From assembly GCA_902771785.1 (NCBI GenBank), contig CACXYH010000002.1:32553-96552 (forward strand): DNA of 64,000 bases. Reading direction: 5' to 3'. The translations under genes were made by a program, and so were the position numbers. The stretch's first letter is position 1. Each line of letters starts with the position of its first letter. A model generated the notes under the pieces. That model did no database searches. It saw only the letters and a list, made by a program, of their open reading frames with translations, and was not told where the DNA came from. Origin of the DNA: an uncultured Prevotellaceae bacterium (GTDB lineage: Bacteria; Bacteroidota; Bacteroidia; Bacteroidales; Bacteroidaceae). Positions 2 to 64,000 of the stretch are shown here, piece by piece.

Positions 2-2668
<2,667 letters not shown>

Positions 2669-2696
2669 GCGTATTTCTACCATCCTGAAGAATAAT

Positions 2697-2756
2697 AGCT
2701 AAAATTCTCGGTTTCATGTATGCTGTTCGGAAAATAAGATGTATCTTTGCAACATA
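2697..2756 (+). promoter_or_regulatory. Promoter module upstream of the BspA-like gene
   Basis: A Bacteroidota -7 box TATCTTTG sits at 2742-2749. The 60 bases around it, from AGCTAAAATT to TTTGCAACATA, reappear almost unchanged upstream of murF (5923-5980). Confidence 0.75.
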
Positions 2757-2794
2757 AAAATCCAGAACAGTTACTATTATAAATTAAAAGGTAT

Positions 2795-48165: not shown

Positions 48166-50913
48166 TCACCACTGCGTAATGTCGGCAAAACGCATCAGAT
48201 AGGTGTCGTACTGCGTGATGAAAGGACGGAACGGTGCAGGTACGGACGAGGGACTGCCAAAGAGCGGCGGCATCACACCGGCCTCAACACGATAAAGACG
48301 GAAACGGGCACCGACCTTGCCTGCCGGAATGGGGAATGCCGTGCGACGGAACTTGGGTCCCTGTCCTGAGACGGCTGCGTTGACAGTAAGCACGATACCG
48401 CGGTCTGTCTGCTCGAAATTCAGATTGAGGCTGTCGCCCACAACGAGCAATCCACGACCCTCAGCATCGGTAAGCAGGGCTGCATCGACCCCCTCATGAT
48501 TGCCTTCGAAATAGAGGTCGTCCTTCTGCTTAGCCCAAATGCCGTAGCGACAGGCCTGATGACGACCCGGATAGCTGGCGAACGGGCCTTGACCAAGCCA
48601 CTGAACCCGGTCGACTGTCTGGTCGAGCAGGAAAGCGAGTCCAAGCTCGGCACGGAAGACATCGGCAGTATCGGGCATTAAGGTGAACGCATACTCCAGT
48701 CCACCATCGACAGGCTGGCACTGCACCTCGGCCTTCACGGCATCATTACCGACGGGCAACAGGTAACGTTGGGGCAGGCGCTCCTTCTGCGTGACACGCT
48801 CTGCCAGCGTAGCCTTACGGCCGGCACGCACCAGAGGGCCTTGCTGTATCAGCGCTGCCACATCGCCTTGGCTGCTCCACTCGTAACGCGGCTTGCTGAT
48901 TACAAACGACTGCTGCAAGAAGAGATGGCCCTGCGCATCGACCACATCGAAATGAAGTAGCGCAAGTTTGCCGGCAGGCACCAAAGGTAAGGTCAGCGTA
49001 TAGGCCACAGAATCATGAGGGGCGCAAGCAGGACTGAAGGCTCCACGGGCAATGGTATCGCGATGGGAAGAAAGTGCCCAGTGGAAGGTCACGTTATCCT
49101 TCAGGTTCAAGAAGTCGTAGCGATTGTGAATGGTAAGGGTAGCCGGCATATTGCCGCCCGATAGAGCCTCGCCCGTCGAAGGAGTCGAAAGGGAAACGAA
49201 AGCACGGGCGTAGTTATGCTGCAGCTCATAGTAGTTAGGCAACGGCGTACGGTCGGCATAGAGCAGTCCGTCGGTGCCTTTATTGCCATACATCTCGAAG
49301 CCGGCGCTGGGCGAAGTATAGACTTTCTCCTCATAGCCGAACATTGGTTGCTGTGCGGCATGACTCAGCACAAAGGGCATACCCTGGTCGACCCACTCCC
49401 AGACGCTGCCTCCGGCAATGCCTGGCGTGCGTTGAATGATTTCCCACTGGCGGTCGTGGTCTTCGAGCGAAATGCCAAGCGTGTGGCAGTACTCGGTGAA
49501 GATGACAGGCCGGTCGAGATGCTGATAGAAGCCCGCTATCTGTCCTGTCGTGGGGTAATGGGGCGCATAGATGGGAGCGGCGGAAGGAAATCCTTTCGCA
49601 TTTCCGCCCTCGAAGAAACGACGGAAGTAGCTGCCCACCTGCGGATAGCAGAAAGGCCGCGAGGAGTCGAGTTCCTTTCTCACGTAGTCGCCCAGGCGGA
49701 TGCAAATATCGGTGAGCGGGTTTTCATTGCCCAGACTCCAGACGAGCACCGAGGGATGGTTCTTGTCGCGACGGATGGTAGCCTCGGCACGCTGCTGCAG
49801 AATGGGATAGAAAGAAGAGTCGCTGAGGTTCTTGTCGCCGAAGCCGAAGGGCACCTCATCGACGATGTAGAAGCCAAGCGAGTCGGCCAGTTCATAGAAG
49901 CGGGGCTCACGAGGATAATGGCTGGTGCGGATGTAGTTGACGGAAGCTTCCTTCATGAGACGCATATCGCGCAGGGTAAGTTCGTCGCTGACGACCTTTG
50001 CGGTACGTGGGTCGGTAGAGTGGCAGGTGACGCCACGCAGTTTGATGGGTTGCCCGTTAAGTTTCAGCACATTGCCGTCAATGGTGACTTCGCGGAAGCC
50101 GAACTTATGCTCAAAGACCTGCAGAGTGCCTTTCTTATTGAGAAGCGTCGTACGTAGCGTATACAGATAAGGTGTCTCTGCCGTCCAAAGATGTGGGTTG
50201 ACCACGCGATTGGTTCCTACGACACGCCTATCGGCATCAAGTATCTCGTGTCTGACGCTTGCACCTTTCCCATTGGCAATCTCCACATCGACGTTGACCT
50301 CACCCGTGTTTTTAGTGCGGATGGTCAGGTCGCTGAGATGAGTGTTGGGCACCGCCATCAGCGTAACATCGCGAAAGATGCCGCTGGGCGCCCAGTCGTC
50401 GTTGTAGTCGAAGTCGCTGCCTCGGAAGCGGGTAATCACGCGCAGGGCCAGTTCCTGTTCGCCATGCTTACGCAAGCAGTCGGTAATGTCGAAGAGCGCC
50501 GTGTTGTAGCCGGAGCGCCAAGCACCTGCGTGCCGGCCATTGACGTAGAGGTCGTAGCCATAGAGCACGCCGTCGAAGCGAAGCACGATGCGCTGTCCGC
50601 GCCACTCCTGGGGCACGCTGAAGTGGGTGCGATAGTAGCCTGTCAGGGGATTGGCCTTGTCGTAGCTGGGCTTGCAGAAGCCATAGGCTTCCCAACAGCC
50701 AGGCACGGGAATGGTGCGCCAGGTGGCATCTTGGGCCGGCACACCAGCCTCATTTTCTTGGATACCCTCGACTACCTTCAGGCTCCATTCGCCATTCAGG
50801 CTTCGCATCATGGCGGGGTCGGTGACGGGAAGGACCTGCGCCGCCGAGCAGTTCAAGTGGAAGAGGCCAACCATCAACGCAAAGAGGAGCTGCGCTCGCA
50901 TTGCTTTCGTCAT
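48166..50913 (-). CDS. GH2 family glycoside hydrolase (beta-galactosidase-like)
   Basis: The 915-residue protein has an N-terminal export signal (FALMVGLFHLNCSAAQ). The GH2 order is jelly roll (PVPGCWEAYGFCKPSYD), Ig-like domain, TIM barrel with acid/base Glu in VWSLGNENP (about residue 396) and nucleophile Glu in FTEYCHTLG (about 472), then WEWVDQGMPF and a C-terminal beta-galactosidase domain (RVQWLGQGPFASYPGRHQ). A beta-galactosidase on galactan side chains is the most likely role. Its start overlaps the DUF362 stop by 4 bases. Confidence 0.92.
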   Translation of the reverse strand: MTKAMRAQLLFALMVGLFHLNCSAAQVLPVTDPAMMRSLNGEWSLKVVEGIQENEAGVPAQDATWRTIPVPGCWEAYGFCKPSYDKANPLTGYYRTHFSVPQEWRGQRIVLRFDGVLYGYDLYVNGRHAGAWRSGYNTALFDITDCLRKHGEQELALRVITRFRGSDFDYNDDWAPSGIFRDVTLMAVPNTHLSDLTIRTKNTGEVNVDVEIANGKGASVRHEILDADRRVVGTNRVVNPHLWTAETPYLYTLRTTLLNKKGTLQVFEHKFGFREVTIDGNVLKLNGQPIKLRGVTCHSTDPRTAKVVSDELTLRDMRLMKEASVNYIRTSHYPREPRFYELADSLGFYIVDEVPFGFGDKNLSDSSFYPILQQRAEATIRRDKNHPSVLVWSLGNENPLTDICIRLGDYVRKELDSSRPFCYPQVGSYFRRFFEGGNAKGFPSAAPIYAPHYPTTGQIAGFYQHLDRPVIFTEYCHTLGISLEDHDRQWEIIQRTPGIAGGSVWEWVDQGMPFVLSHAAQQPMFGYEEKVYTSPSAGFEMYGNKGTDGLLYADRTPLPNYYELQHNYARAFVSLSTPSTGEALSGGNMPATLTIHNRYDFLNLKDNVTFHWALSSHRDTIARGAFSPACAPHDSVAYTLTLPLVPAGKLALLHFDVVDAQGHLFLQQSFVISKPRYEWSSQGDVAALIQQGPLVRAGRKATLAERVTQKERLPQRYLLPVGNDAVKAEVQCQPVDGGLEYAFTLMPDTADVFRAELGLAFLLDQTVDRVQWLGQGPFASYPGRHQACRYGIWAKQKDDLYFEGNHEGVDAALLTDAEGRGLLVVGDSLNLNFEQTDRGIVLTVNAAVSGQGPKFRRTAFPIPAGKVGARFRLYRVEAGVMPPLFGSPSSVPAPFRPFITQYDTYLMRFADITQW

Positions 50914-53051
50914 AGCTTCTGGTATTTCAAATCAATCTTGGTGTACTTGCGTTCCTGCTGATTGTTCCAATGTTCGAAGAGTCCGAGAGGCTGCTGAAGC
51001 GGCTGTCCGCCCTGCTTATAGACGGTTCCGCTGGGCGTATGGGGAATGGTGGCAGCTTCGCGCAAGTACTCATCGCAATAGTTCAGGCTTCCAAACTCGG
51101 GCCACTCACCGATAATGATGTCCATAGCGACCGCATCGCAGGCCAGTTCGTCTTGACTGACGATGAGCGAGCAGGCCCAATCGCCGTTGAAGGGTGCTTT
51201 CATCCACTTGGGATTGGGAGCGCCATTCACGTCGCGCGAGCCATAGGTGCCGTCGATGATGAAGAGCAGCGTCTTCTGTCCCATGTCCTTGTGGGCCATC
51301 CAGTCGACGAATGTCTTATACTGCGGCTTGCCGTTGCGCTTGTCCTGGCTCACGTTGTTGTGGGCATTCTGCCGCCAAAGCAGGTTGATGTCGGTGGCTC
51401 CGTACCAGTTTTTCGAGGTCAGCGTGACGCCTGGGCCTGAATGGGTCTTCAGCAGCGCCGAGTTAATGAGATAATCGGCATCGACAATGCACTTGGCCAG
51501 CCCGCGCGCCATCTTGCCATTATCCACGGAGTAGGTTATCTGCTCAGGGTAATACTCGCACTTCTCGCGTCCGTCGCCACCGATATTGTCGATGAAACGC
51601 ACCTCAGGGAACTCCCTGTGCACCTTATTATATATAGAGTCGGTGATGGCACGCGAGGGTTCGCAGAGCACGATGTCCTGCTGGCGCACGCCGCCGTCGC
51701 GCACCATAGAGCGCACGAGGGCCAGCGTCACGAAGGGCGACGAGTTGAGTTCGATGGTGTCGCGGTGCGTGATGGCGTTGTTCAGATTGAGCTTCACGGC
51801 AATCGACTCGCCCTTCTTGTAGCCACGATTGCCGCGTCCGTGGGTCTTGTTGAAGTGCTTGAAAAGTGCCTTCCAGGCTTTCTTGGGGGTGAGTTCGCCG
51901 GATAGCTGCACGACAGCCTCGCGCACCAATGCGTCGGCCTTGGCCTGACTGTTCCAGCGGTCTTCCACCCAAAGGCCGGTATGACCGTCCCATGTGGCCA
52001 CACCTGGGGCGTGCACCCATGCCACCCGGCCGGGATGAATGCCCCTACCCTCGCCCAACGGCTGGTTGGGGCCCACAAACAAGCGGGGTTTCGGGCTTTT
52101 ACCATACTCGCCGAAGAACAGGCGGTCGCGATTGACAGCCTCCGAAAGCAGCTGAATGGTGGTCGACGGCCCCAGGTCGGGATTGCGCCAGGAGCGCAAC
52201 TGCCACACCAGCTTGCCGTTTTTGTCGACTTCAATGGCCTGCACAGGAGCTTTGGCAGTATCCATCGGCGTCTTGTTCCATTCGTTATACCAGTTGTTGA
52301 TGATGTGTCCGCCATCCTTCAGCCGCACTACTTTCTGCGGTTGTGTGACGCCATACTGCGTGGTGTTGAGCTGCCAAACGGTCTGACCTTGCCGGTTGAT
52401 TTCCTGAATCAGCCCCTTCCGGCCCGTGACAAGCAGGTTGCCCGTCTTGGGCAACTCCTGCACCGACCAGGGCAGCATGCCCGTCCAGCGGTCTACTTCC
52501 TGTCCGCTGCTGGTGAACTCGTGGATGCATCCCATCGCCATATTCGCCACCAGCAGCGTGCCGCGCGACGACAATCGGGCGTTGCGGAACTGCCCGTGGA
52601 CAGAGCCTTTCTCGTTGTAGGGCAACTGAAACTCGCCGACGACACGGCAAGCGGGAATCTCCATGACGACAGCCTTGGCAGGCTTTCCGTTCTGAACGAA
52701 CACCACATGCGTGCGCCCGATGGGCTGAGCGGTGTGAATCTCCGTTCCCTCCGGCGCCTGATAGCCCCACACGGTCTGTCCGTTCTGGTCAATTTCGGCC
52801 ACGCCATACTGATGGGCCACGAGCATGTGGCCGTCGGTCATCAGCACAGCATCGCTGATTTCGCCACGCTTCAGCTGGTCCTGATAGGCCCAGCTCACCT
52901 GTCCGTCCTTCACGATGAACATGCGTCGCTGCTTGCTCTGCCCGGCATAGAAGAAGTCATGACGTGACAGGCTCTCGTCGACAACCGTCTGGGCCAGCAT
53001 CTCGCCGCCAGTCAGCATGAATAAAAGAAGTGCTCCTAATAGTCTTTTCAT
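50910..53051 (-). CDS. Beta-propeller plus DUF362 protein
   Basis: I start at the ATG at 53051 (MKRLLGALLLFMLTGG, export signal); the GTG at 53144 lies in the repeat array. Of 713 residues the first 330 form a PQQ/WD-type propeller (QVSWAYQDQLKRGEI, QTVWGYQAPEGTEIH, GKLVWQLRSWRNPDLG), and the C-terminal part (about 390-700) matches DUF362 (KGESIAVKLNLNNAI, VLCEPSRAITDSIYNKV, INSALLKTHSGPGVTLTSKNWYG). DUF362 usually occurs in ferredoxin-like proteins of unknown function; I see no iron-sulfur cysteine motif here. It is the first gene of the PUL block as seen in this window, coupled by ATGA to GH2. Its role in pectin use is unknown. Confidence 0.82.
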   Translation of the reverse strand: MKRLLGALLLFMLTGGEMLAQTVVDESLSRHDFFYAGQSKQRRMFIVKDGQVSWAYQDQLKRGEISDAVLMTDGHMLVAHQYGVAEIDQNGQTVWGYQAPEGTEIHTAQPIGRTHVVFVQNGKPAKAVVMEIPACRVVGEFQLPYNEKGSVHGQFRNARLSSRGTLLVANMAMGCIHEFTSSGQEVDRWTGMLPWSVQELPKTGNLLVTGRKGLIQEINRQGQTVWQLNTTQYGVTQPQKVVRLKDGGHIINNWYNEWNKTPMDTAKAPVQAIEVDKNGKLVWQLRSWRNPDLGPSTTIQLLSEAVNRDRLFFGEYGKSPKPRLFVGPNQPLGEGRGIHPGRVAWVHAPGVATWDGHTGLWVEDRWNSQAKADALVREAVVQLSGELTPKKAWKALFKHFNKTHGRGNRGYKKGESIAVKLNLNNAITHRDTIELNSSPFVTLALVRSMVRDGGVRQQDIVLCEPSRAITDSIYNKVHREFPEVRFIDNIGGDGREKCEYYPEQITYSVDNGKMARGLAKCIVDADYLINSALLKTHSGPGVTLTSKNWYGATDINLLWRQNAHNNVSQDKRNGKPQYKTFVDWMAHKDMGQKTLLFIIDGTYGSRDVNGAPNPKWMKAPFNGDWACSLIVSQDELACDAVAMDIIIGEWPEFGSLNYCDEYLREAATIPHTPSGTVYKQGGQPLQQPLGLFEHWNNQQERKYTKIDLKYQKL

Positions 53052-53112
53052 AAGTGCATGATATTTTCCTGATATTATAAGAAAGACGCACATCCGCCGC
53101 AATTGTAACCAA

Positions 53113-53190
53113 TTGGCGGCACTAAACCCACCGATAGGCGGCACTAATCGCTTGGGTTAGTACCGCCTATCGGTGGGATTAGTGCCGCCT
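53113..53190. repeat. Array D: four 22-bp-phased units forming a long hairpin
   Basis: GGCGGCACT begins at 53115 and 53137; its reverse complement form AGT(A/G)CCGCC begins at 53159 and 53181. Unit centres (53119, 53141, 53163, 53185) are exactly 22 bases apart. Two forward and two reverse units make a stem of about 35 bases with 3 mismatches between the infB stop and the DUF362 gene. No T run follows, so it is not a standard terminator. Confidence 0.92.
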
Positions 53191-53231
53191 TCCTGCGAAG
53201 ACCGGCGTCTGGCTATTCAGAGATGCAGCGA

Positions 53232-56198
53232 CTACAGCTTCTGCTCCACCTCGATTTCGGTGAAGGTTTCGATGATGTCGCCCACCTGGATGTCGTTGAA
53301 GTTGACGAGCGAGATACCGCACTCCAGTCCGGTAGCCACCTCTTTGGCATCGTCCTTGTAGCGCTTCAGGGCATCGATGTTGGCAGTATGGATGACAATA
53401 CCATCGCGAATGACGCGAGCCTTGTCCTTGTTGTGCACCTTGCCTTCGGTGACGAGACCACCGGCAACGGTACCCACCTTCGAAATCTTGAACACCTGCT
53501 TCACCTCGATTTCGCCCGAGACGACCTCCTTCTTCACCTTGTCGAGCATGCCCTGCATGGTGCTCTTCACCTCGTCGATGGCATCGTAGATGATCGAGTA
53601 GGTATTGATTTCCACGCCTTCGCGCTCTGCCAGCTTGCGGGCATCGGCAGAAGGACGCACCTGGAAGCCCACGATGATGGCATCGGAAGCCGAGGCCAGC
53701 ATGACGTCGTTCTCTGAAATCTGGCCCACAGCCTTCGAGATGACGTTGACCTGCACCTTCTCAGTAGAGAGCTTGATGAACGAATCGGAGAGTGCCTCTA
53801 TCGAACCGTCGGTATCACCCTTGACGATGATGTTCAGCTCATGGAACTCACCCAGGGCAATGCGATGCGAGATGTCGTCGAGACCGAGCGTCTTCGTGGT
53901 GCGCAGCGACTGTTCGCGCTGCAGCTGCGTACGCTTGTTGGCTATTTCGCGTGCCTCCTGCTCCGTGTCCATCACGTGGAAGGAGTCGCCAGCCGTGGGT
54001 GCTCCGTTCAGTCCCAGGATGATGGCGGGCTCGGCTGGACCGGCACTCTGAATGCGCTGGTTACGCTCGTTGAACATAGCCTTGATGCGTCCGAAGGCGG
54101 TACCGGCAATCACCACGTCGCCCACCTTGAGCGTACCATTCGACACGAGCACGGTAGACACGTAGCCACGACCCTTGTCGAGCGAGCTCTCGATGATGCT
54201 ACCCGTGGCCTTGCGGTTGGGATTGGCCTTCAGGTCGAGCATCTCGGCTTCGAGCAGCACCTTCTCCAGCAGCTCTTCAACGCCGATACCCTTCTTGGCC
54301 GATATCTCCTGACACTGGTACTTACCGCCCCACTCTTCCACGAGCAGGTTCATGTTGGCCAGGTCCTCGCGAATCTTGTCGGGGTTGGCACCTGGCTTAT
54401 CAATCTTATTGATGGCAAACACCATCGGCACGTTGGCAGCCTGAGCGTGGGCAATGGCCTCCTTCGTGGTGGGCATCACCGAGTCGTCGGCAGCAACGAT
54501 GATGATGGCAATATCGGTCACCTGTGCACCACGGGCACGCATGGCGGTGAACGCCTCGTGGCCAGGGGTGTCGAGGAAGGTAATCTGACGGCCGTCAGAC
54601 AGCTCCACATTGTAGGCACCGATGTGCTGCGTAATGCCACCGGCCTCGCCGGCAATCACGTTGGTCTTGCGGATATAGTCGAGCAACGACGTCTTACCGT
54701 GGTCTACATGACCCATGACGGTGACAATCGGCGCACGCGTGACGAGATCGTTCTCGTCGTCCTGCTCCTCGGTGATGGCTTCCTGCACCTCGGCGCTGAC
54801 GTATTCGGTGGTAAATCCGAACTCCTCGGCCACGATGTTGATGGTCTCGGCATCGAGGCGCTGGTTGATAGACACCATGATGCCGATGCTCATGCAGGTA
54901 CCGATGACCTGATTGACGCCCACGTTCATCATCGTAGCCAGCTCGCTCACGGTGACGAACTCGGTGAGCTTCAGCACCTTCGACTGTGCTGCCTCGGCAG
55001 CCATCTCCTCGCTCATGCGCTCCTGAACGGCGTCGCGCTTCTCCTTACGATACTTGGCACCTTTCTTGTTCTGCGTGGTCTTCGAGGTGAGTCGGGCCAG
55101 CGTCTCCTTTACCTGGCGTGCCACGTCCTCCTCGTTGACCTCAAGCGGCTTCTGAATGGGGCGGTTCTTTTTCTTGTTCTTGCCGCCCTGCTGCTGTTGC
55201 ACGTTGTCCTGCAGGTTCTGGTTGCCGCCCTTGTTCTTCTTGTTACGGCCCTGGTTCTGCTGTTGCTGCTGCTTGGCAGCCTCTTCTATGTCGACCTTGC
55301 CGTTGCGAATGCGCTCGCGCTTGCGGCGTTCGCCGTTGGCGGCAGCATTCTGGCTGCGCTGCTGGGCAATCTTCTCCTCGCGCTGCTTGCGCTTCTCCTC
55401 CTTCGACTTCTTCTTCGGACGAGTGCTCTGGTTCAGCGTCGAGAGGTCAATCTTGCCCAGAACGTTCACCTTCGGAGCCATTTTCGTCTCGCTCTTCAGC
55501 GTATAGATTTCGGGCTCGTTGCTGCTGGCAGCAGGTGCTTCGGGCTTCTTCTCCTCGGCCTTGGGCTCGGCTGGGGCTGCAACAGGGGCAGCCACCTTCA
55601 CCTTGGGCTTAGGCTCCGCCACCGGCTGAGGCTTCGCAGGCTCTTTCGCCACGGGAGCTTCGGGCTCGGGCTTAGCTTCAACCTTCGGCTTAGCTTCGAC
55701 CTTGGGCTCAACGGCAGGTGCAGCCGGCTTCTCTTCTTTCGGTTTGGCTACGGGTTCTACCTCGGCTTTGGGGCTCTCGGCAGCAGCCTTTGGCGCTGGG
55801 GTAGATTTCTGGGGCTTAGGCTTCACCTCAGCAACGGGCTCCGGCTTGGGCTCGGGTTTGGGCTGAGGTTTGGGCTTGCCCACACTATCCAGGTCGATTT
55901 TGCCCAACGGCTTGAACTGCTGTCGCGGCTGCGACAGGCTGTCGTCCACCTTTGCGGCAGGTTTCGACTCCGGTTTCTTCTCTTTCTTCTTGGGGAAGAG
56001 CGTAGCTGCCTTGGTCTTCACGGCCTTGTCGCCACTGAACTCGTTGACCAGCGCCTCATACTGCTGGTCGCTGATTTTGGTGTTCGGAGTGGCGTCGTCC
56101 TTGATTTCGCCCAGGCTACTCTTCTTCTTTAGGAAATCAACTGCCGTTTGAAGTCCTATGTTCAGTTCTGTTAATACTTTATTTAATCTTACTCCCAT
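53232..56198 (-). CDS. infB: Translation initiation factor IF-2
   Basis: IF-2 is the GTPase that places initiator tRNA on the ribosome. The 988 residues begin with the IF2_N helices ([21 protein letters not shown]), followed by a long Lys/Pro/Ala/Glu-rich linker (about 70-370), a second IF2_N block, and the G domain with [12 protein letters not shown] (about 495), [11 protein letters not shown] and NKIDKPGAN, then domains II-IV. The length is typical for Bacteroidota, with their extended N-terminus. It is the third conserved member of rimP-nusA-infB, separated from nusA by an inserted four-helix-bundle gene. A long minus-to-plus antisense open frame across it is a shadow. Confidence 0.97.
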
Positions 56199-56211
56199 AT
56201 CTTAAAGTAAA

Positions 56212-56245
56212 AGTGAATAGTGAAAAGTGAAAAATTTGCTTCCGC
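56212..56245. repeat. Left copy of a 34-bp inverted repeat
   Basis: AGTGAATAGTGAAAAGTGAA, then AAATTTGCT and TCCGC; the reverse complement stands at 56637-56670 with one mismatch in 34 (29 perfect bases). It lies between the four-helix-bundle stop and infB. Confidence 0.93.
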
Positions 56246-56255
56246 ACTTTTCCGT

Positions 56256-56633
56256 TCACTTGATCTCTTTGTCTTGTTTTGTCGTTTTAATTGATGCGAT
56301 TAAGAGGGCCAGCAATTCCTGGCAATCATTTGCCATGCTGTCAAACTGCTCATTGCTCATATACTCCGTGTCATGAAGTATATTCAACCAGTATAAAGTC
56401 TCGTTACACTCCTTGAGTGCAATGGATAGCTTATTGATAAAATCTGCTGCGCTTTGTGCATATACAGCCTCACTCACCAGAGCGCCGATAGCTGTGCCAG
56501 AACGGAAAACCTGATTCAGCATTCCATATTCCTGGGGACTGCACTTGACGCATTTCACCATCTTGACCACCCTTGTAGCAAAGAGGTAGCTTTTCCGGGT
56601 AAGGGGTGAGTTGCTGTTCTGAAGATACGACAT
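56256..56633 (-). CDS. Four-helix-bundle protein (23S rRNA IVS / bAvd-like family)
   Basis: The ATG at 56633 is used; a GTG one codon earlier touches the inverted repeat. The product (125 residues) shows the family pattern: an aromatic first helix (KSYLFATRVVKMVKCV), the VFRSGTAIGALVSEAVYAQSAADFINKLSIALKE block, and NETLYWLNILHDTEYM. Relatives occur inside 23S rRNA intervening sequences and as accessory (bAvd) proteins of diversity-generating retroelements; free-standing copies of unknown role are common in Bacteroidota. This one is boxed by a 34-bp inverted repeat, between nusA and infB. That arrangement looks like a small mobile insertion, though no transposase is present. Confidence 0.85.
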   Translation of the reverse strand: MSYLQNSNSPLTRKSYLFATRVVKMVKCVKCSPQEYGMLNQVFRSGTAIGALVSEAVYAQSAADFINKLSIALKECNETLYWLNILHDTEYMSNEQFDSMANDCQELLALLIASIKTTKQDKEIK

Positions 56634-56636
56634 CAC

Positions 56637-56670
56637 GCGGTAGCAAATTTTTCACTTTTCACTATTCACT
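56637..56670. repeat. Right copy of the 34-bp inverted repeat
   Basis: GCGGTAGCAAATTTTTCACT followed by TTTCACTATTCACT mirrors 56212-56245. It carries the region just upstream of the four-helix-bundle start codon and lies 18 bases after the nusA stop. Confidence 0.93.
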
Positions 56671-56688
56671 CTTCACTTAGCCTTTAGC

Positions 56689-57948
56689 TTATTCAAACTC
56701 CGCTCTGAGCACTTCCAGCAGATGGTCGACGGTCTCTTCTTCGAGGTCGGCCTTCTCAATGAGCATTTCGCGCGGAGCGTTGAGCACAGCCTTGGCGGTG
56801 TCGAGACCGATGGCCTTGATAGCATCGATGACCCACTGGTCGATTTCGTCGGCAAACTCGTCGAGGTAGATGTCCTCGTCGGCTTCGTTCTCGTTGACCA
56901 CGCGGAACACGTCGATGGTGTGCTCGGTGAGCATAGAGGCCAGCTTGATGTTCATGCCGCCCTTACCAATAGCGAGGCTCACCTCCTCCGGCTGCAGGTA
57001 GACCTCAGCCTTGTGGTTCTCCTCGTCGAGCTCGATACTCGTGACCTTGGCAGGCGAGAGCGCACGCTGGATGAAGAGCTGCACGTTGCTCGAGTAGTTG
57101 ATCACGTCGATATTCTCGTTCTGCAGCTCGCGCACGATGCCATGAACGCGGCTACCCTTCACACCCACGCAGGCTCCAACGGGGTCGATGCGGTCGTCGA
57201 AGCTCTCGACGGCCACCTTCGCACGCTCGCCCGGCATGCGGGCCACGCGGCGAATGGCAATCAGTCCGTCGCTAATCTCGGGCACCTCGGCCTCCAGGAG
57301 TCGCTTCAGGAACTCGGGGCTGGTGCGCGAAAGGATAATGCGCGGGTTGTTGTTTTCGTTCTGCACCTCCTTCACCACGGCACGAATCGTCTCGCCCTTG
57401 TGGTAGTTGTCGGCAGGAATCTGCTCGCTCTTGGGCAGGTGGAGCTCGTTGCCCTCATCGTCCATGAGCAGCACCTCGCGCTTCCACATCTGGTAGACCT
57501 CGCCCGAAACAATCGTGCCCACCTTGTCCTTATACTTCTGGTAGAGGGCATCGTGGTCCAGCTCCAGAATCTTTGAAGCCAGCGTCTGGCGCAGGTTCAG
57601 GATGGCACGGCGGCCGAACTTCTGAAAATCCACCGACTCCGACACCTCTTCGCCCACCTCGTAGTCGGGCTCAATCTTCTGTGCCTCGCTCAGCGCAATC
57701 TCCTTGTTCTCGTCCTTCACCTCGCCATCGGCCACCACAATACGGTTGCGGTGAATCTCGAAGTCGCCCTTGTCGGGGTTCACAATCACGTCGAAGTTCT
57801 CGTCGGAACCGAACATCTTGGCCAGCACATTGCGGAAGCTCTCCTCGAGCACGCTCACCAGCGTGGTGCGGTCGATGTTCTTTGTCTCCTTAAAATCCTG
57901 AAAGGTCTCAAACATGCTGGGGCCTTTCGCTTCTTTCTTTACTGCCAT
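56689..57948 (-). CDS. nusA: Transcription termination/antitermination protein NusA
   Basis: NusA binds RNA polymerase and RNA hairpins and shapes pausing, termination and antitermination. The 419 residues contain the N-terminal polymerase-binding domain (MFETFQDFKETKNIDRTTLV), an S1 domain (GTIVSGEVYQMWKREVLL), and two KH domains (PVGACVGVKGSRVHGIVREL; VSLAIGKGGMNIKLASML), with a short acidic C-terminus. The AR repeats of E. coli NusA are absent, as is normal for this phylum. It follows rimP by 35 bases. Confidence 0.97.
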   Translation of the reverse strand: MAVKKEAKGPSMFETFQDFKETKNIDRTTLVSVLEESFRNVLAKMFGSDENFDVIVNPDKGDFEIHRNRIVVADGEVKDENKEIALSEAQKIEPDYEVGEEVSESVDFQKFGRRAILNLRQTLASKILELDHDALYQKYKDKVGTIVSGEVYQMWKREVLLMDDEGNELHLPKSEQIPADNYHKGETIRAVVKEVQNENNNPRIILSRTSPEFLKRLLEAEVPEISDGLIAIRRVARMPGERAKVAVESFDDRIDPVGACVGVKGSRVHGIVRELQNENIDVINYSSNVQLFIQRALSPAKVTSIELDEENHKAEVYLQPEEVSLAIGKGGMNIKLASMLTEHTIDVFRVVNENEADEDIYLDEFADEIDQWVIDAIKAIGLDTAKAVLNAPREMLIEKADLEEETVDHLLEVLRAEFE

Positions 57949-57983
57949 TTCTTTTTATTCTTTATTCTTTTATGATTTCATGC

Positions 57984-58454
57984 TTACTTGAATGCCAGCA
58001 AATACTTTGTCGACTTCACCTCGTCCATCGAGTAGTCCGTGTCGACTTCTACCAGCACCGGGCGCTTCTTGCCCTCGGGCACCTGCTTCTCCTTGGTGGT
58101 CAGCGTGAACGTGCGCCCGTCGACCTTCTTCAGCACGCCGGTGTGCTTCTTGCCCGCAGCATCCACCACTTCCACATCGTCGCCCACGTGGCACTCGTAC
58201 TGCTGTGCCACCTTGAAGGGCTGTCCCAGTCCGGCCGAGCCCACCTCGAGCTCGTAGTCGCCCAGCTCGTCGCCCAGGTTGTCCTGCAAGTAGCGGCTCA
58301 GCTCAGCGCAGTCTTCAATCCACACGCCGTCGGCGTGGTCAATCTCGATGACAATCCGGTCGTCGGCTTCCATCTGAATGTCTACCAGGAAGTAGCTGCC
58401 ATGCTCGGCCAGCCACTTTTCCACCAATTCTTTGATAGTGTCTTTTGTTATCAT
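57984..58454 (-). CDS. rimP: Ribosome maturation factor RimP
   Basis: RimP helps assemble the 30S subunit. The start is the ATG at 58454 (MITKDTIKEL); the longer frame to 58520 crosses the leader hairpin and promoter. The 156 residues show YFLVDIQMEADDRIVIEIDH, the CAELSRYLQ segment, the LEVGSAGLGQPFKVAQQY motif and a C-terminal SH3-like domain (VLKKVDGRTFTLTTKEK). It is first in rimP-nusA-(4HB)-infB. Confidence 0.95.
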   Translation of the reverse strand: MITKDTIKELVEKWLAEHGSYFLVDIQMEADDRIVIEIDHADGVWIEDCAELSRYLQDNLGDELGDYELEVGSAGLGQPFKVAQQYECHVGDDVEVVDAAGKKHTGVLKKVDGRTFTLTTKEKQVPEGKKRPVLVEVDTDYSMDEVKSTKYLLAFK

Positions 58455-58466
58455 TATGCTAAGTTT

Positions 58467-58504
58467 AAAAAAGAATGAGGAGCTTCCGAGAAAGCTCCCC
58501 ATTC
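58467..58504 (-). terminator. Terminator-like hairpin in the rimP leader
   Basis: On the minus strand, GAATGGGGAGCTT pairs with AAGCTCCTCATTC (one mismatch) and is followed by six Ts, all between the promoter (58518-58525) and the rimP start codon (58454). Its place in the leader fits an attenuator rather than a gene-end terminator. Confidence 0.75.
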
Positions 58505-58516
58505 CACTGAACGGCT

Positions 58517-58575
58517 GCAAAGGTACGAATATTTTCCGAAACCTGCAAACTTTTCTGATTATTTTTTCGCCAAAG
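58517..58575 (-). promoter_or_regulatory. rimP: rimP promoter, copy 1 of a 59-bp direct repeat
   Basis: Minus strand: TTTG, 20 bases, TACCTTTG (plus-strand 58518-58525). The whole 59 bases recur at 59306-59364 with one difference. Confidence 0.88.
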
Positions 58576-58583
58576 AAGCTTCA

Positions 58584-58775
58584 TCATAGCCGACGGCTCG
58601 CTGCAGCAACTATTGTGTCCGATTGCCAAACGCAAATATTTTTGGTGGAATCACCATCAAGAATTTGCCTTTTTACTATCTGCCATGCTTTGTCCCTACC
58701 AATACTACTATTCCAAGCAATAACATTTACAATAGAGCACAAGCAAAAAATGACTAATAAAAAAAATCGCTTCAT
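58584..58775 (-). pseudogene. Truncated exported protein, cut at the 59-bp repeat
   Basis: The 63-residue frame has a good signal peptide (FFLLVIFCLCSIVNVIA) and then only 45 residues: a helix (GRDKAWQIVKRQIL), DGDSTKNICVWQSDTIV, and an abrupt AASRRL end. Its stop lies 9 bases before the repeat copy 58517-58575. Proteins with this start that I recall in Bacteroidota run much longer after SDTI, so I read this as a gene cut off by the rearrangement that duplicated the promoter. It starts 2 bases after the lipoprotein stop, as its operon partner. Confidence 0.6.
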
Positions 58776-58777
58776 AA

Positions 58778-59269
58778 TTATTCCTTAATATCGTTAACAA
58801 CAACCGTACCCTCAGAACTTCTTAGCTCTATATGGAAATCCTTGCGCTCTAAGCCGTCCTTCACTACAATCACATGATATTTGCCTTCTTGCAAGCCTTC
58901 TATGGCAAATGTCAAGTCATAGGGACATATGCAATTAGCTATAGGATTCTTTTCTGACTCTGACAAAAAAATGGTGTTACCTTCAAAACGTACCTCGCCG
59001 GCAATCTCATTCTGTTCACAACAAAAATACGCATTCTTATGATTCACGATAAGCACGTTATTTTCCACCTGAAACTCAAAGGAGCCAGTAGTCTCTATAG
59101 CACTCACCTCTGCACGACTATTACCAGAAACGGAGGTTCCAGCCGATTTACATCCTGTGTGGGCAAAAAAGTACTTCACCTCTGATTCATCATCGCTACT
59201 GCAACCTACAGATAGCATTACTACGCCCATAATCAGGGGCAGAACAAGCAAATAGAAATAACGTTTCAT
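58778..59269 (-). CDS. Cysteine-containing lipoprotein of unknown function
   Basis: The 163-residue product has a lipobox (LSVGC, cysteine at 23) followed by a SSDDESE spacer, then a beta-rich domain with several cysteines (HTGCKSAG, YFCCEQNEI, ANCICPYDLTF) and a final LQEGKYHVIVVKDG strand pair. I know no named family, but the layout is common among Bacteroidota surface lipoproteins. It is transcribed from the second promoter copy (59306-59364), with the truncated gene downstream. It is less GC-rich than rimP-nusA-infB. Confidence 0.78.
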   Translation of the reverse strand: MKRYFYLLVLPLIMGVVMLSVGCSSDDESEVKYFFAHTGCKSAGTSVSGNSRAEVSAIETTGSFEFQVENNVLIVNHKNAYFCCEQNEIAGEVRFEGNTIFLSESEKNPIANCICPYDLTFAIEGLQEGKYHVIVVKDGLERKDFHIELRSSEGTVVVNDIKE

Positions 59270-59305
59270 ATCGGTCGTGTTTAAATATTCATGTAATATT
59301 CATCG

Positions 59306-59364
59306 GCAAAGGTACGAATAGTTTCCGAAACCTGCAAACTTTTCTGATTATTTTTTCGCCAAAG
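59306..59364 (-). promoter_or_regulatory. Promoter of the lipoprotein gene, copy 2 of the 59-bp direct repeat
   Basis: 58 of 59 bases equal those at 58517-58575, including TTTG, 20 bases, TACCTTTG (plus-strand 59307-59314). The two copies are 789 bases apart. Confidence 0.88.
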
Positions 59365-59404
59365 CATGGCGGATTTAAATTTGTCTCTGCTCAATATCTA
59401 GTCA

Positions 59405-59662
59405 TTATAGAGTTTTTACATCCTCTGGCTTATAGTAAATTTTACGCTCAATCTGGGAATAAGCCAAAGTGCCATTATCCCTTAACGTTTGCAATGTTCT
59501 CGGGCTGATGTTCAGTATCCGGCACATATCTTGGTGGACAAGCCATTCTCCTAACCGTTTGTCCTTACCTCTACTACCCATAGCTTTCATCTGTGCGACG
59601 AAGCTGTTGAAGCTCGCCTGTAGCTCCTCGTAGGTACTGCGCTCAATTGATATTACTTCCAT
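59405..59662 (-). CDS. Small excisionase-like helix-turn-helix protein
   Basis: The start is the ATG at 59662 (MEVISIERSTYEELQASF). The 85 residues have a short coiled N-terminus (STYEELQASFNSFVAQMKAM) and a MerR/HTH_17 DNA-binding domain (GEWLVHQDMCRILNISPRTL, then GTLAYSQIERKIYYKPEDV). Such proteins accompany mobile elements and toxin-antitoxin or defence loci in Bacteroidota. It is divergent from the FRG operon, so it could control it; this is inferred from position. Confidence 0.82.
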   Translation of the reverse strand: MEVISIERSTYEELQASFNSFVAQMKAMGSRGKDKRLGEWLVHQDMCRILNISPRTLQTLRDNGTLAYSQIERKIYYKPEDVKTL

Positions 59663-59691
59663 GTCTATTTTAGTTTTGTGAAATTTGAACG

Positions 59692-59699
59692 CAAAGGTA
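59692..59699 (-). promoter_or_regulatory. -7 box of the HTH gene
   Basis: TACCTTTG on the minus strand, 30 bases before the start codon; no clear TTTG at -33. The rest of the 348-base divergent gap 59663-60010 holds the FRG promoter and nothing else I can name. Confidence 0.6.
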
Positions 59700-59965
59700 C
59701 ACCATGTTTTCCAGATAGGCTCATTCTGAAAATTCCCTATTGTGAAATAACAATTCATGAAAACAAAAGCCAAATGTCCGCAGTGCTTGCTCGCCAGAAA
59801 ACATACAAGCATCTTTGTGTGGCACTCCACAGAAAAGTGCGTATTAGGCTACACCCCTCTATTGGGATGCATTGTGGTATTCTTCGCAAGAGGGTGGATT
59901 AGCCTTTTCTCGTACATGTATTATTTGAGGTATACTGACTGATTTTACAATAAAATGCCAATTAG

Positions 59966-59997
59966 TTTGTTACATTGCAAAATATTTGTTATTTTTG
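59966..59997 (+). promoter_or_regulatory. Promoter of the FRG operon
   Basis: TTTG (59966-59969), 20 bases, TATTTTTG (59990-59997), a full consensus match. The ATG at 60011 lies only 13 bases on, so the leader is very short. Confidence 0.78.
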
Positions 59998-60010
59998 CAT
60001 TCGAATATTA

Positions 60011-61090
60011 ATGGCAGAAAAAATGTTGTCTATGATAAAAACAAAGGACAGAACATATTTAGAAGATTTGTCTTATGACAATGCTGATGTATTTCTTCGC
60101 GATATCAGTTATGGAGGGAAACTATATGATATTTTCAATGAAAACTTCATATTTCGTGGTCATTCTACCGATGAGTATAAATTAATATCTTCTGTACAAA
60201 GAATTAATCCATATGTTGAAAAGTATGGATTTAAAAAAGATACTTCTAAAGAATTCTTTGCTTTTGCACACACGGAATTCTCCCAGGCATTTCACGAATA
60301 TCAATATCTGGATGAATTCTTTAGAATTTGTGATGAAAACCAATTATATGTACCAGAAGTTAAAAGAATGCGTGAAGCAATTCCTTGGAAGCATAAAGGT
60401 ATTCCTTTTTTATTGGATAAAGGAGAATGGCTGCCAGAAGAGTTGTATGAACTGGCTACTCTTGCCCAGCATCATGGTGTACCAACAAGACTTATCGATT
60501 GGACTCACGATATTAACGTAGCCATCTACTTTGCAGTTTCAGGTTTAATTCGTAGACTGTGTGAACCTCCAAAATATACTGAAGAAGAAGCTATTAAAAA
60601 ACGATTAAACGATATTAAACTGCATTTTAAGAAAACTGATGTAAGCGCAGATAAAACAGATAAACGATTAGAGATATGGGCTATTGACAAACGTGTCGCT
60701 TTGGCTCATGTTGGAGATAATCCTTTATGTATCATCCATCCAAGATATTATGACAATGGGAATTTAGGCGCTCAAAAAGGTTTACTAACCTTTTGGAAAA
60801 CAAGAAAGCCCATAAAAGAAGATGAGGAAAAGAGAGTGGTTCCAGAAATAGCATGGAGAGATGAAAAAACATTAGACGAGCATATTGTAGAGTTCCTTTT
60901 AGAAAAAGCAGCACCTTCTAAACCGTATATCTATCATATCACAATTCCCGAAATAGGTTTTGTCGAACTTTATAAGTTCATAAAGCATAATAGGTGTGAT
61001 GCATCTTCTCTTTTCCCTGGCTATGATGGAGTCGTAAGATGTATGAAAGAAGATGTTATGTTCAATAAGATAAAAGACATATTATTATGA
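60011..61090 (+). CDS. FRG-domain protein
   Basis: I use the ATG at 60011 (MAEKMLSMIK), since the one at 59975 lies upstream of the promoter box. The 359 residues show the FRG-domain signature: FIFRGHSTDEYKLISS with Phe48-Arg49-Gly50, and LAQHHGVPTRLIDWTHDINV (His154, His155, Asp163, Trp164), then AIYFAVSG. The C-terminal part has two more conserved-looking stretches (GAQKGLLTFWK, ITIPEIGFVELYKFI). The FRG domain is of unknown biochemistry; it occurs in phage and bacterial accessory genes. No signal peptide, so it is cytoplasmic. Codon use is strikingly AT-rich. The stop overlaps the next start (ATGA). Confidence 0.88.
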   Translation: MAEKMLSMIKTKDRTYLEDLSYDNADVFLRDISYGGKLYDIFNENFIFRGHSTDEYKLISSVQRINPYVEKYGFKKDTSKEFFAFAHTEFSQAFHEYQYLDEFFRICDENQLYVPEVKRMREAIPWKHKGIPFLLDKGEWLPEELYELATLAQHHGVPTRLIDWTHDINVAIYFAVSGLIRRLCEPPKYTEEEAIKKRLNDIKLHFKKTDVSADKTDKRLEIWAIDKRVALAHVGDNPLCIIHPRYYDNGNLGAQKGLLTFWKTRKPIKEDEEKRVVPEIAWRDEKTLDEHIVEFLLEKAAPSKPYIYHITIPEIGFVELYKFIKHNRCDASSLFPGYDGVVRCMKEDVMFNKIKDILL

Positions 61091-63345
61091 AAAGAATTAT
61101 AATTCTTATGGCAACCGTATTGCTGCCTTTTTGGGCGTTTGCGCAGAGAGACGATTCTCCTGAGATTCAAAAAGGAGTTGATTGTTATGACAAAGAAGAT
61201 TACAAAAATGCCTTTATTGTTTTCTCTAAAGAAGCTAACAATGGTAATTCATATGCTCAATGCCTCTTAGGTTATCTTTATGAAACAGGTGAGGGAGTCG
61301 TCCAAAATTATGGTACTGCTATGGAGTGGTATCGCAAATCAGCTGCTGGTAACAATTATTTAGGCCAATTGTACATTGGACTAATGTATGAAAATGGATT
61401 AGGCGTTCCACAAGATTACAGCGTAGCAGTACAATGGTATCAAAAAGCAGCTGAACAAGGGTGTGCTGAAGCGCAACGCCGTTTGGGATGTTGTTACTTA
61501 AACGGTCAAGGTGTAAAGCAAGATGTAGACATCGCTTTCATATGGTACAAAAAAGCAGCAGAGCAGGGAGATGAAGAAGCGCAATTAGAATTGGGCTTTA
61601 TGTATGATAGCGGAAAAGGGGTAGAAAAGAATTACGAAAAAGCTGTGTATTGGTATCTAAAGGCTGCAGAACAGGGAAATGTAAGCGCTCAATTTAATTT
61701 AGGTGCTATGTATGATGAAGGATTGGGTGTCAATCAAGATAAAGAAAAGGCATTTGAGTGGTATTGCAAGGCGGCTGAACAAGGATATGTTGATGCACAG
61801 TTAAATTTAGCGATTATGTATGGAACTGGAGATGGGGTAAAAAAAGACATAAATAGATCTATACGGTGGTATCACAAGGCGGCCGACCAAGGCGAGCCTA
61901 CATCCCAAAACAATTTGGGATGCATTTATCGTGATGGAGATGGGGTTGTTAGGGATTATGTTAAAGCTGTTGACTTCTTTAGAAAATCTGCAGAACAAGG
62001 GTATGATGAAGCCCAGTTTAATTTGGGAAATATGTATATGTCTGGTAGAGGTTTGAAAAAGAATTCGCAGAAAGCGAGAGAATGGTGGGAAAAAGCGGCT
62101 GAAAACGGTCATGTCGGTGCTCAGTATAATTTAGGAGTAATATTTGCTAAAGGTGAGGGTGTCAAAAAAGATGGAAAAAAAGCTGCTGAATGGTGGAGAA
62201 AAGCTGCAGAGAAAGGGCATAAAGATGCACAGAATAATCTCTCTATACGCTATCTTACGGGGAATGGTGTGCTAAAAAACTATGTAGAAGCTGTACACTG
62301 GGCAAAAAAAGCAGCAGAACAAGGTAATGCTACTTCTCAATTCAATCTCGGCCTTGCTTATTTACGCGGAGAAGGAGTTGAGAAAGATAATTCGCAAGCA
62401 ATTAATTGGCTTAAAAAAGCTGCAGACCAAGGAGATAAGAAAGCATATTATTATTTAGGTGTCGCTTATTATGAAAGTGATGACAACACTAAGGATTATG
62501 CCCAGGCCTTTTCATGGTTTGAAAAAGCAGCGCAACAAGGAAACGCTGATGCCGAAAACTATTTAGGCTTATGTTATGAAAATGGATTTGGTGTAAAAAT
62601 GAACATATCCCAAGCTCTTAATTGGTATAACAAGGCAGCTAATAAAGGTAATGCCTATGCCATAGGCAATCTCGCCTTTTTATACGACAATGGTATAGGA
62701 GTTCAAAAAGACAAGAAAAAAGCTTTTTCCCTTTTTAAGCAAGCTGCAGAAAAGGGATGCACATTTGCACAAAGAAATCTTGCATACCATTATTATGATG
62801 GTTCTGGAGATACTAAAGACATTGATACTGCCATATATTGGATGAACAAGGCGAAAGAAGGTGGAGATGAAGCCGCAGGAGAATTGTTAGAAGTATTATA
62901 TAAGATTAAGAGTCTTCCAAGCGAAAGTTCTTATGATATCTATTATAAGAAGCAGGAGAGTGCCACCACGATAATAATGAATAAAAAGGGCTATGTTTAT
63001 TATGTCCCATGCAAAATAAATGGATTGAAAGCAGATTTTATTTTCGACACTGGTGCAGGGATGATTAGTTTGTCCTCCAATTTTGCTCGGCAATTGGTTG
63101 AAATGGGGCGTCTTTCAGAGAAAGATATTATAGGTAAAAGCAATAGCATGATTGCCGACGGTAGTGTGACACAAGTATTAGTGGCCAATCTCAAAGATGT
63201 AGAAATTGGGGGATTGCATTTGTACAATGTAAAGGCAACGATTAAGGAACAACAAAATGCGCTATTGCTTTTGGGACAGTCTGCAATAGAAAAATTAGGA
63301 AAAGTAACTATAGACGGTTACAAACTCATTATACACAAAAGATGA
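61087..63345 (+). CDS. Exported Sel1-repeat protein with retropepsin-like aspartyl protease domain
   Basis: A signal peptide (ending WAFAQ) leads to about 15 Sel1-like repeats (residues about 55-605; consensus A-Q--LG--Y--G-GV--D---A--WY-KAAEQG). The last 115 residues form an aspartyl-protease domain of the retropepsin-like bacterial type: YYVPCKINGLKADFIFDTGAG with catalytic Asp654-Thr-Gly, and late hydrophobic LLLLGQSAIEKLGKVTID. The fusion suggests a periplasmic protease whose Sel1 scaffold binds a partner. It is coupled by 4-base overlaps to the FRG gene before it and the HTH gene after it. The gene is AT-rich like its neighbours. Confidence 0.9.
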   Translation: MKRIIILMATVLLPFWAFAQRDDSPEIQKGVDCYDKEDYKNAFIVFSKEANNGNSYAQCLLGYLYETGEGVVQNYGTAMEWYRKSAAGNNYLGQLYIGLMYENGLGVPQDYSVAVQWYQKAAEQGCAEAQRRLGCCYLNGQGVKQDVDIAFIWYKKAAEQGDEEAQLELGFMYDSGKGVEKNYEKAVYWYLKAAEQGNVSAQFNLGAMYDEGLGVNQDKEKAFEWYCKAAEQGYVDAQLNLAIMYGTGDGVKKDINRSIRWYHKAADQGEPTSQNNLGCIYRDGDGVVRDYVKAVDFFRKSAEQGYDEAQFNLGNMYMSGRGLKKNSQKAREWWEKAAENGHVGAQYNLGVIFAKGEGVKKDGKKAAEWWRKAAEKGHKDAQNNLSIRYLTGNGVLKNYVEAVHWAKKAAEQGNATSQFNLGLAYLRGEGVEKDNSQAINWLKKAADQGDKKAYYYLGVAYYESDDNTKDYAQAFSWFEKAAQQGNADAENYLGLCYENGFGVKMNISQALNWYNKAANKGNAYAIGNLAFLYDNGIGVQKDKKKAFSLFKQAAEKGCTFAQRNLAYHYYDGSGDTKDIDTAIYWMNKAKEGGDEAAGELLEVLYKIKSLPSESSYDIYYKKQESATTIIMNKKGYVYYVPCKINGLKADFIFDTGAGMISLSSNFARQLVEMGRLSEKDIIGKSNSMIADGSVTQVLVANLKDVEIGGLHLYNVKATIKEQQNALLLLGQSAIEKLGKVTIDGYKLIIHKR

Positions 63346-63620
63346 GCAATAAATTGTACGGATATCAATTGCATAAAGAAGAAATGAATACAATAGTAAA
63401 CCGAGAATTAGAACTTGTGAGTAAAGACAATTTTTTTTCGATAATTGACGCAGATGGGGAGGAATGGGTGTCGCCGGCAGAGGCTGCTAGGATTCTAAAT
63501 TTGTCAGTAGGAAGAATATATCATATCAAGAACTATTTAACTCACAGGAAAGGTAATTCCTCCAGAAGTCGAGTGTTCTTCTTAAAAAGGACTTTGTTTG
63601 ATGATTATATAAATATGTAG
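63342..63620 (+). CDS. Small helix-turn-helix protein
   Basis: The ATG overlaps the stop of the Sel1/protease gene (ATGA), so the three genes form one translational unit. The 92 residues have an N-terminal region (ELELVSKDNFFSIIDADGEE), then a HTH_17-like DNA-binding domain (WVSPAEAARILNLSVGRIYH, KNYLTHRKGNSSRSRVFFLK) similar in style to that of the protein at 59405. It may be the regulator of the operon or bind a DNA target of the system; this is inferred. Confidence 0.75.
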   Translation: MSNKLYGYQLHKEEMNTIVNRELELVSKDNFFSIIDADGEEWVSPAEAARILNLSVGRIYHIKNYLTHRKGNSSRSRVFFLKRTLFDDYINM

Positions 63621-63654
63621 GAAACTTGGTTATGCCAACTAGCATCGGCAATGA

Positions 63655-63686
63655 TTGCACTTTATAGAATAAAATCATTAACTTTG
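63655..63686 (+). promoter_or_regulatory. Promoter of the DUF1016 gene
   Basis: TTG (63655-63657), 21 bases, TAACTTTG (63679-63686), 8 bases before the first ATG. Confidence 0.72.
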
Positions 63687-63694
63687 CAAACGTA

Positions 63695-64000
63695 ATGAGA
63701 TTTATGAGCAAAAAGCACAATGAAATAGAAATCAGTGAGCCACGCATGGTGAAGTCTCATGATGTGAAGCTGGATGCTGAGTATGCAGAATGGATAGCAG
63801 AGGTGAAGTACCGTTATCGCTCTGCCCAAGTAAAGGCTGCCGTTAAGGTGAATGGCGAGAAACTGCTATTCAACTGGCAGATGGGGCGTGACCTTGTGCA
63901 GAAGAAAGCAGAGGAACGTTGGGGTGCTGGTGTTGTGGAGCAGGTAAGCCTGGATTTGAAGCGAGAATTTCCTAATGAGAATGGATTCTCTACATCTAAC
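63695..64000 (+). CDS. DUF1016 (YhcG-type, PD-(D/E)XK nuclease family) protein, 3' end outside window
   Basis: The frame is open to the right edge (102 residues visible). ATGs at 63695 and 63704 are both possible. The visible part matches the DUF1016 N-terminal domain: EWIAEVKYRYRSAQVKAAVK, then LLFNWQMGRDLVQKKAEERW and GAGVVEQVSLDLKREFP. The family (E. coli YhcG) has a C-terminal PD-(D/E)XK nuclease domain, expected outside the window, and often lies with restriction-modification or integrase genes in islands. That fits the AT-shifted, accessory character of this end of the window. Confidence 0.87.
   Translation, partial: MRFMSKKHNEIEISEPRMVKSHDVKLDAEYAEWIAEVKYRYRSAQVKAAVKVNGEKLLFNWQMGRDLVQKKAEERWGAGVVEQVSLDLKREFPNENGFSTSN

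Follow-up and report, generated by a model that had tools for sequence, protein, structure and literature searches.

An FRG-domain gene in a variable accessory region of an uncultured Prevotellaceae bacterium as a probable phage-defence effector, with a protease and an HTH gene probably grouped locally

Do three genes that overlap one another form a conserved system, or has a variable region joined unrelated genes in one transcript? The question is raised by a locus near the end of a 64,000-nucleotide (nt) stretch from an uncultured Prevotellaceae bacterium (assembly GCA_902771785.1, contig CACXYH010000002.1; henceforth the window, to which coordinates without a locus label refer), where a gene for an FRG-domain protein is followed by genes for an exported Sel1-repeat/aspartyl protease protein and a small helix-turn-helix (HTH) protein. 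An initial annotation had proposed that the three constitute a new coupled system, with FRG as a defence candidate. We consider it fairly probable that FRG is a phage-defence effector in a variable accessory region, and that the protease and HTH genes were co-assembled with it locally rather than belonging to a conserved three-gene system. This reading draws on family membership, conserved motifs and the occurrence of FRG relatives on viral contigs and beside restriction-modification (R-M) and Abi genes; the chemistry, trigger and outcome are what we infer from them. The elements of the operon are as follows.

59966..59997, + strand: Bacteroides-type promoter candidate (TTTG, 20 nt, TATTTTTG), from a pattern match
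60011..61090, + strand: FRG-domain protein of 359 amino acids (aa), likely start 60032, from PF08867, PDC-S15 and the starts of relatives
61087..63345, + strand: exported protein of 752 aa with 15 Sel1 stretches and a C-terminal clan AA aspartyl protease, from Pfam and DTGA at residue 654
63342..63620, + strand: small HTH protein of 92 aa, of a family often linked to integrases, from an HTH_17 match under the cut-off and from relatives

The proposed gene coupling is real: the FRG stop codon (61088-61090) overlaps the downstream ATG at 61087, and the Sel1/protease stop codon (63343-63345) overlaps the ATG of the HTH gene at 63342, giving two ATGA overlaps. The AT-rich accessory setting was also borne out, with GC content at third codon positions of 0.25-0.37 in the three genes of this low-GC operon vs. 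0.76-0.81 in infB and nusA. The suggestion of an own promoter held in part. A candidate lies 5' of the first ATG (TTTG at 59966-59969, a 20-nt spacer, TATTTTTG at 59990-59997), and the TTTG/TATTTTTG pair fits the -33/-7 promoter consensus of Bacteroides; it is, however, not unique, because the loose pattern recurs across the 64-kb window (8 positions, i.e., 6 sites, on the + strand and 10 positions on the - strand). As for the FRG start, ATG 60032 is likelier than ATG 60011, because the starts of relatives align with the former.

The idea of a new three-gene system did not withstand comparison with other genomes. The genome sets were samples with many fragmented metagenome-assembled genomes, so gene adjacency can be lost at contig ends, and protease relatives were counted by similarity to the window's own protease domain at E 0.001. 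Among 200 genomes of the genus, we found FRG relatives in 8 others and protease relatives in 29 others; both occurred only in G093, on different contigs, and none of the 8 other FRG genes shared a contig with a protease relative. The 9 other HTH places in this sample and the 8 other FRG genes sat in different genomes. Across 399 genomes of the family, where FRG occurs at 44 further places and protease relatives at 65, the count of FRG places sharing a contig with a protease relative was again zero (0/44), and ten other genomes carried both. When 169 relatives were searched at the DNA level for the entire operon (two candidates scored per genome), pieces only came back, of which the protease end in G074 scored best (80% over 364 nt), and blastn of 59900-64000 against plasmids hit 18 records, none spanning most of the query. 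Since these genus, family and operon DNA searches found no recurrence of the trio in an independent genome, a local grouping in a variable region is likelier than a new three-part system, and we rejected the trio as a conserved system.

FRG itself belongs to a recognisable family, although no second copy of the trio was found. It matched PF08867 with 63.3 bits (cut-off 25) and the PADLOC candidate family PDC-S15 with 75 bits (13 PDC-S15 models at E 1e-3), and all 27 aligned FRG relatives matched PF08867 and at least 12 PDC-S15 models. The alignment of relatives contained three invariant blocks: W140 to A175 (including AQH and D-W), P244 to G257 (N, N, Q, G), and P313, G337 and G340. The window FRG thus carries the conserved blocks of PDC-S15, but differs in being overlapped by two further genes. 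According to the accessible portion of PMC9503650, the Frg clade belongs to the ADP-ribosyltransferase (ART) superfamily and is a proposed immune effector and possible NADase; the likeness to the window protein lies in the FRG family name. An NAD-based chemistry would follow from this published superfamily assignment, unconfirmed by our own comparison. A PDB search with an FRG profile returned ferritin matches at chance level only, and none of the publications that the literature searches brought up deals with testing an FRG protein.

The contexts of FRG relatives (several neighbours, here and for the protease, being recognised by eye) tell more about its likely role. A pattern scan of species genomes with a four-row FRG alignment gave 13 loci, and a scan of genome contigs with the single protein as query confirmed nothing. 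FRG relatives were present on 15 IMG/VR viral contigs, in 5 phage records and in 28 plasmid records. By eye, the viral-contig neighbours were P2-like tail genes (L069, L070, L073, L074, L076, L079), integrases (L071, L072, L078, L080, L081, L082) or other genes (L068, L075, L077), and no partner gene was common to them. Type I R-M genes lay close by in two genomes (HsdR is the next gene after FRG in G503, and FRG in G420 has HsdS two genes ahead of it), and AbiEii, KAP NTPase and RhuM/Fic genes stood at most 2 genes from FRG in three more loci. In the window's genus, AbiH is the same-strand gene immediately before FRG in G024 (gap ~27 nt) and G204 (~110 nt). These loci resemble the window in having an FRG relative of the same genus with a same-strand neighbour, of defence type there, and differ in that AbiH is upstream there whereas the exported protease is downstream here. 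An AbiH-FRG pair is possible at L006 185-2442 and L154 6331-8662.

We also compared the neighbours with PADLOC models: 204 models were matched by 69 proteins at most 2 places from 20 FRG places, vs. 27 by 75 control proteins from the same genomes, counts that (like the 108 given below) are not independent because related models match one protein. The FRG set comprised the 20 best-scoring of 44 non-self places (L150 without a usable neighbour), with masked frames dropped and frames open at the locus end kept; the control set comprised 15 of 18 loci obtained (20 requested), three being short, with open frames dropped. Taken together, the single genes on viral contigs, the R-M and AbiH contexts and the neighbour counts argue that FRG is a defence gene without a fixed partner, so the defence candidacy stands. 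In the FRG tree, the window FRG groups with L055 (100/98), a locus without the protease. Two FRG genes sit amid runs of glycosyltransferase/polysaccharide type by eye (L152 6817-7785, L151 5776-7836), which is odd for a defence gene, and KptA was found in 0 of 61 genomes.

We propose that FRG is a stand-alone PDC-S15 effector, most likely cytoplasmic, in an AT-rich accessory region. Once infection is sensed, FRG would consume NAD+ or ADP-ribosylate a target, and its activity may stop the infected cell from growing (abortive infection). The Sel1-retropepsin and the HTH protein are probably co-transcribed with it, each with a role of its own: the former as an envelope protease or scaffold, the latter as a mobile-element DNA-binding protein or autoregulator.

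What, then, is the second protein? Its predicted build was confirmed by Pfam, with 15 Sel1 stretches (537 bits) and PF13975 gag-asp_proteas (54.5 bits, cut-off 28.2); the profile match and the DTG motif assign it to clan AA, and the DTGA motif starts at residue 654, the Asp654 singled out earlier. It falls short of the clan AA DTGA subfamily TIGR02281 (46.2 bits vs. 57.95 needed). By eye, the N-terminal stretch MKRIIILMATVLLPFWAFAQ resembles a signal peptide. The best PDB match to the protease had an E of only 4e-4; a scan of viral contigs confirmed no relatives, and one plasmid record, from Phocaeicola, contained the protease. The nearest relative (G074, 84% identity) lies on a contig of 6 kb with no FRG in the DNA read, and the second-nearest (G119, 67%, likewise a Sel1-protease) had none in the 12 kb read. 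One could ask whether this protein provides the main function of the operon, in envelope stress and like Pseudomonas RloA, with FRG merely happening to precede it. As far as the available text of PMC12239564 goes, the RloA proteases of P. aeruginosa, which are secreted and retropepsin-like, have effects on survival under hypo-osmotic conditions, on biofilm and on cell shape; they share with the window protein an export signal (by eye) and the DTG active-site motif, and differ from it in that the latter has 15 Sel1 stretches N-terminal of the protease. In line with such a function, many protease relatives, mostly of ~690 aa, adjoin ordinary genes by eye. We nevertheless regard this as quite unlikely, given that FRG comes first behind the promoter candidate and that, by Pfam, the window operon has neither an RloB-type transglutaminase-like membrane protein nor an RloC-type ATP-grasp, i.e., is not an RloABC operon.

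Other protease relatives keep different company. Within 27 loci, they adjoin genes for SEFIR (L083), SIR2_2 and Schlafen/AlbA_2 (L114), AbiGi followed by DUF1016 (L045), an Abi_2-like protein (L046; 24.1 bits vs. a cut-off of 25.6) and, convergently, DUF2971 (L122). Their neighbours (94 proteins) matched 108 PADLOC models, fewer than in the FRG set and more than in the control. The protease set took 12 of 36 non-self genus places and 15 sister-genus places, with three FRG-linked places left out, ~190-aa frames passed over and open frames dropped. The literature search found no publication joining a retropepsin with anti-phage activity. Protease-tetratricopeptide repeat (TPR) genes (L114-L120, L083) were also seen in accessory regions beside genes of defence or toxin-antitoxin type (SEFIR, SIR2_2, AlbA_2), and in five loci such a gene adjoins a protein of 167-191 aa, membrane-spanning by eye, which is a possible true partner.

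L115 4344-4847: small putative membrane protein beside protease-TPR
L116 1764-2288: the same
L118 328-834: the same
L120 6122-6643: the same
L121 4031-4606: the same

A partial recurrence of FRG with an exported protease was seen in a sister genus, where a close FRG is present in 7 of 101 genomes and an eighth gives a weak match. The pairing of FRG with a Sel1-retropepsin was not found elsewhere in the family sample; in three of the seven sister loci (L058, L059, L063), the gene immediately before FRG, on its strand and ~230-240 nt away, encodes another exported clan AA protease, with TPR. There, the protein build is unlike that in the window, with an N-terminal protease domain and TPR repeats (L058). 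In 6 of the 7 loci, a frame of 53-56 aa, belonging to a single family, stands 9-36 nt ahead of FRG (in L059 it is degraded, at 24 aa); it may encode a small partner of this FRG branch.

L056 6689-6859: 53-56-aa frame before FRG
L060 7833-7994: the same
L061 7806-7976: the same
L062 7797-7967: the same
L058 and L063 7810-7977: the same

In the four loci without the protease, a -7 element precedes this frame; in the three with the protease, the 330 nt upstream of FRG showed no such element, so FRG may be read there from the protease promoter. In the FRG tree, L063 pairs with L061, a locus that has no protease gene. Since the window FRG and L063 each group with a protease-less locus, the two FRG-protease pairs either arose separately or reflect a link that is often lost. 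Some 3.4 kb upstream of FRG, L063 also encodes a TPR protein (2439-4595) whose match to DUF4062 is sub-threshold (19.9 bits, cut-off 24.7); this domain is called a TIR-like NADase in the portion of PMC13174449 consulted.

Several of these observations weigh against an effector with unrelated companions. The arrangement in the three sister loci, where no -7 element was found for FRG, speaks for some coupling; two ATGA overlaps are tight for passenger genes; and in G093 (L057), the gene facing FRG encodes a kinase-Sel1 protein that lacks the protease (Sel1 match 2.1e-34). Further, the PDC families are uncharacterised candidates as described in the part of PMC12482510 consulted, and no ART relationship was shown by hhalign of FRG against 4 RES proteins (probability 0.25%, thin profiles). 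The coupling would make sense if a periplasmic Sel1-retropepsin sensed or cleaved something at phage entry and licensed the cytoplasmic FRG, with the HTH protein setting expression. The two overlaps behind one promoter candidate, the second FRG branch and the SEFIR, SIR2_2, AbiGi and Abi_2-like neighbours of protease genes fit such a sensor-effector. Set against it are the 0/44 shared contigs, the four sister FRG genes without a protease, proteases apart from FRG (in G594, beside a SEFIR gene, and in 7 sister-genus genomes without a close FRG, at 56-61% identity), the unlike gene order and protein build in the two genera and, by eye, the lack of a membrane-spanning partner in the operon to carry a signal inward. 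We judge it unlikely, and continue to favour FRG as an effector with local companions.

The third protein, which had been called an HTH protein, has HTH_17 as its sole Pfam match, at 14.7 bits, under the cut-off of 27. It has relatives at 9 further places of the genus sample (E 1e-9 to 2e-6 with phmmer), 6 of them directly beside a tyrosine integrase and 3 not; the integrases are of one family, one having been tested by Pfam and all six by phmmer. The third protein thus resembles an excisionase-type or integrase-linked protein more than one dedicated to regulating FRG. A PDB search gave nothing useful, and the scan of viral contigs confirmed no relatives. Toxin-antitoxin operons often autoregulate, and a single operon ending in a DNA-binding protein could be of this kind, with FRG as the toxin, the HTH protein as antitoxin or autorepressor and the exported protein as an insertion between them. 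However, no HTH relative was found near an FRG gene in the genus sample, and the viral-contig FRG genes had no common partner by eye, which makes a toxin-antitoxin pair highly unlikely.

Two further genes flank the operon.

63695..64000, + strand: DUF1016_N protein (PDC-S02), truncated at the contig end, probably not part of the operon, from Pfam and PADLOC
59405..59662, - strand: divergent small HTH_17 protein of 85 aa (36.1 bits, cut-off 27), probably not part of the operon

The adjoining DUF1016 gene is real (DUF1016_N, 52.2 bits) and truncated, because the contig ends where the window ends; only the N-terminal part is present, the remainder, including any YhcG_C domain, lying past the contig end. 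We rejected it as an operon member given the 74-nt gap after the HTH stop codon and its own -7-like element TAACTTTG at 63679. A 23S_rRNA_IVP four-helix protein gene (56256-56636, - strand, 84.5 bits) lies between nusA and infB, and no tRNAs were found within 50000-64000.

Finally, we offer as speculation, and with little confidence, that exported retropepsin-TPR/Sel1 proteins are a recurring periplasmic arm of cytoplasmic effectors in Bacteroidaceae (FRG, SEFIR/TIR, SIR2, AbiGi, Abi-like), watching the envelope during phage attack and setting the threshold of a neighbouring effector, for which the defence-type neighbours of the protease relatives are suggestive only. If so, the window would show the closest form of this link, its effector and protease being coupled in translation, and should exported proteases turn out to control such effectors, a periplasmic protease sensor would be added to bacterial immunity. 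Otherwise, the locus would be an ordinary case of an accessory region joining unrelated genes in one transcript. FRG proteins are widespread on viral contigs, on plasmids and in defence-type loci, and this compact Bacteroidota example with clear invariant residues suits a first test.

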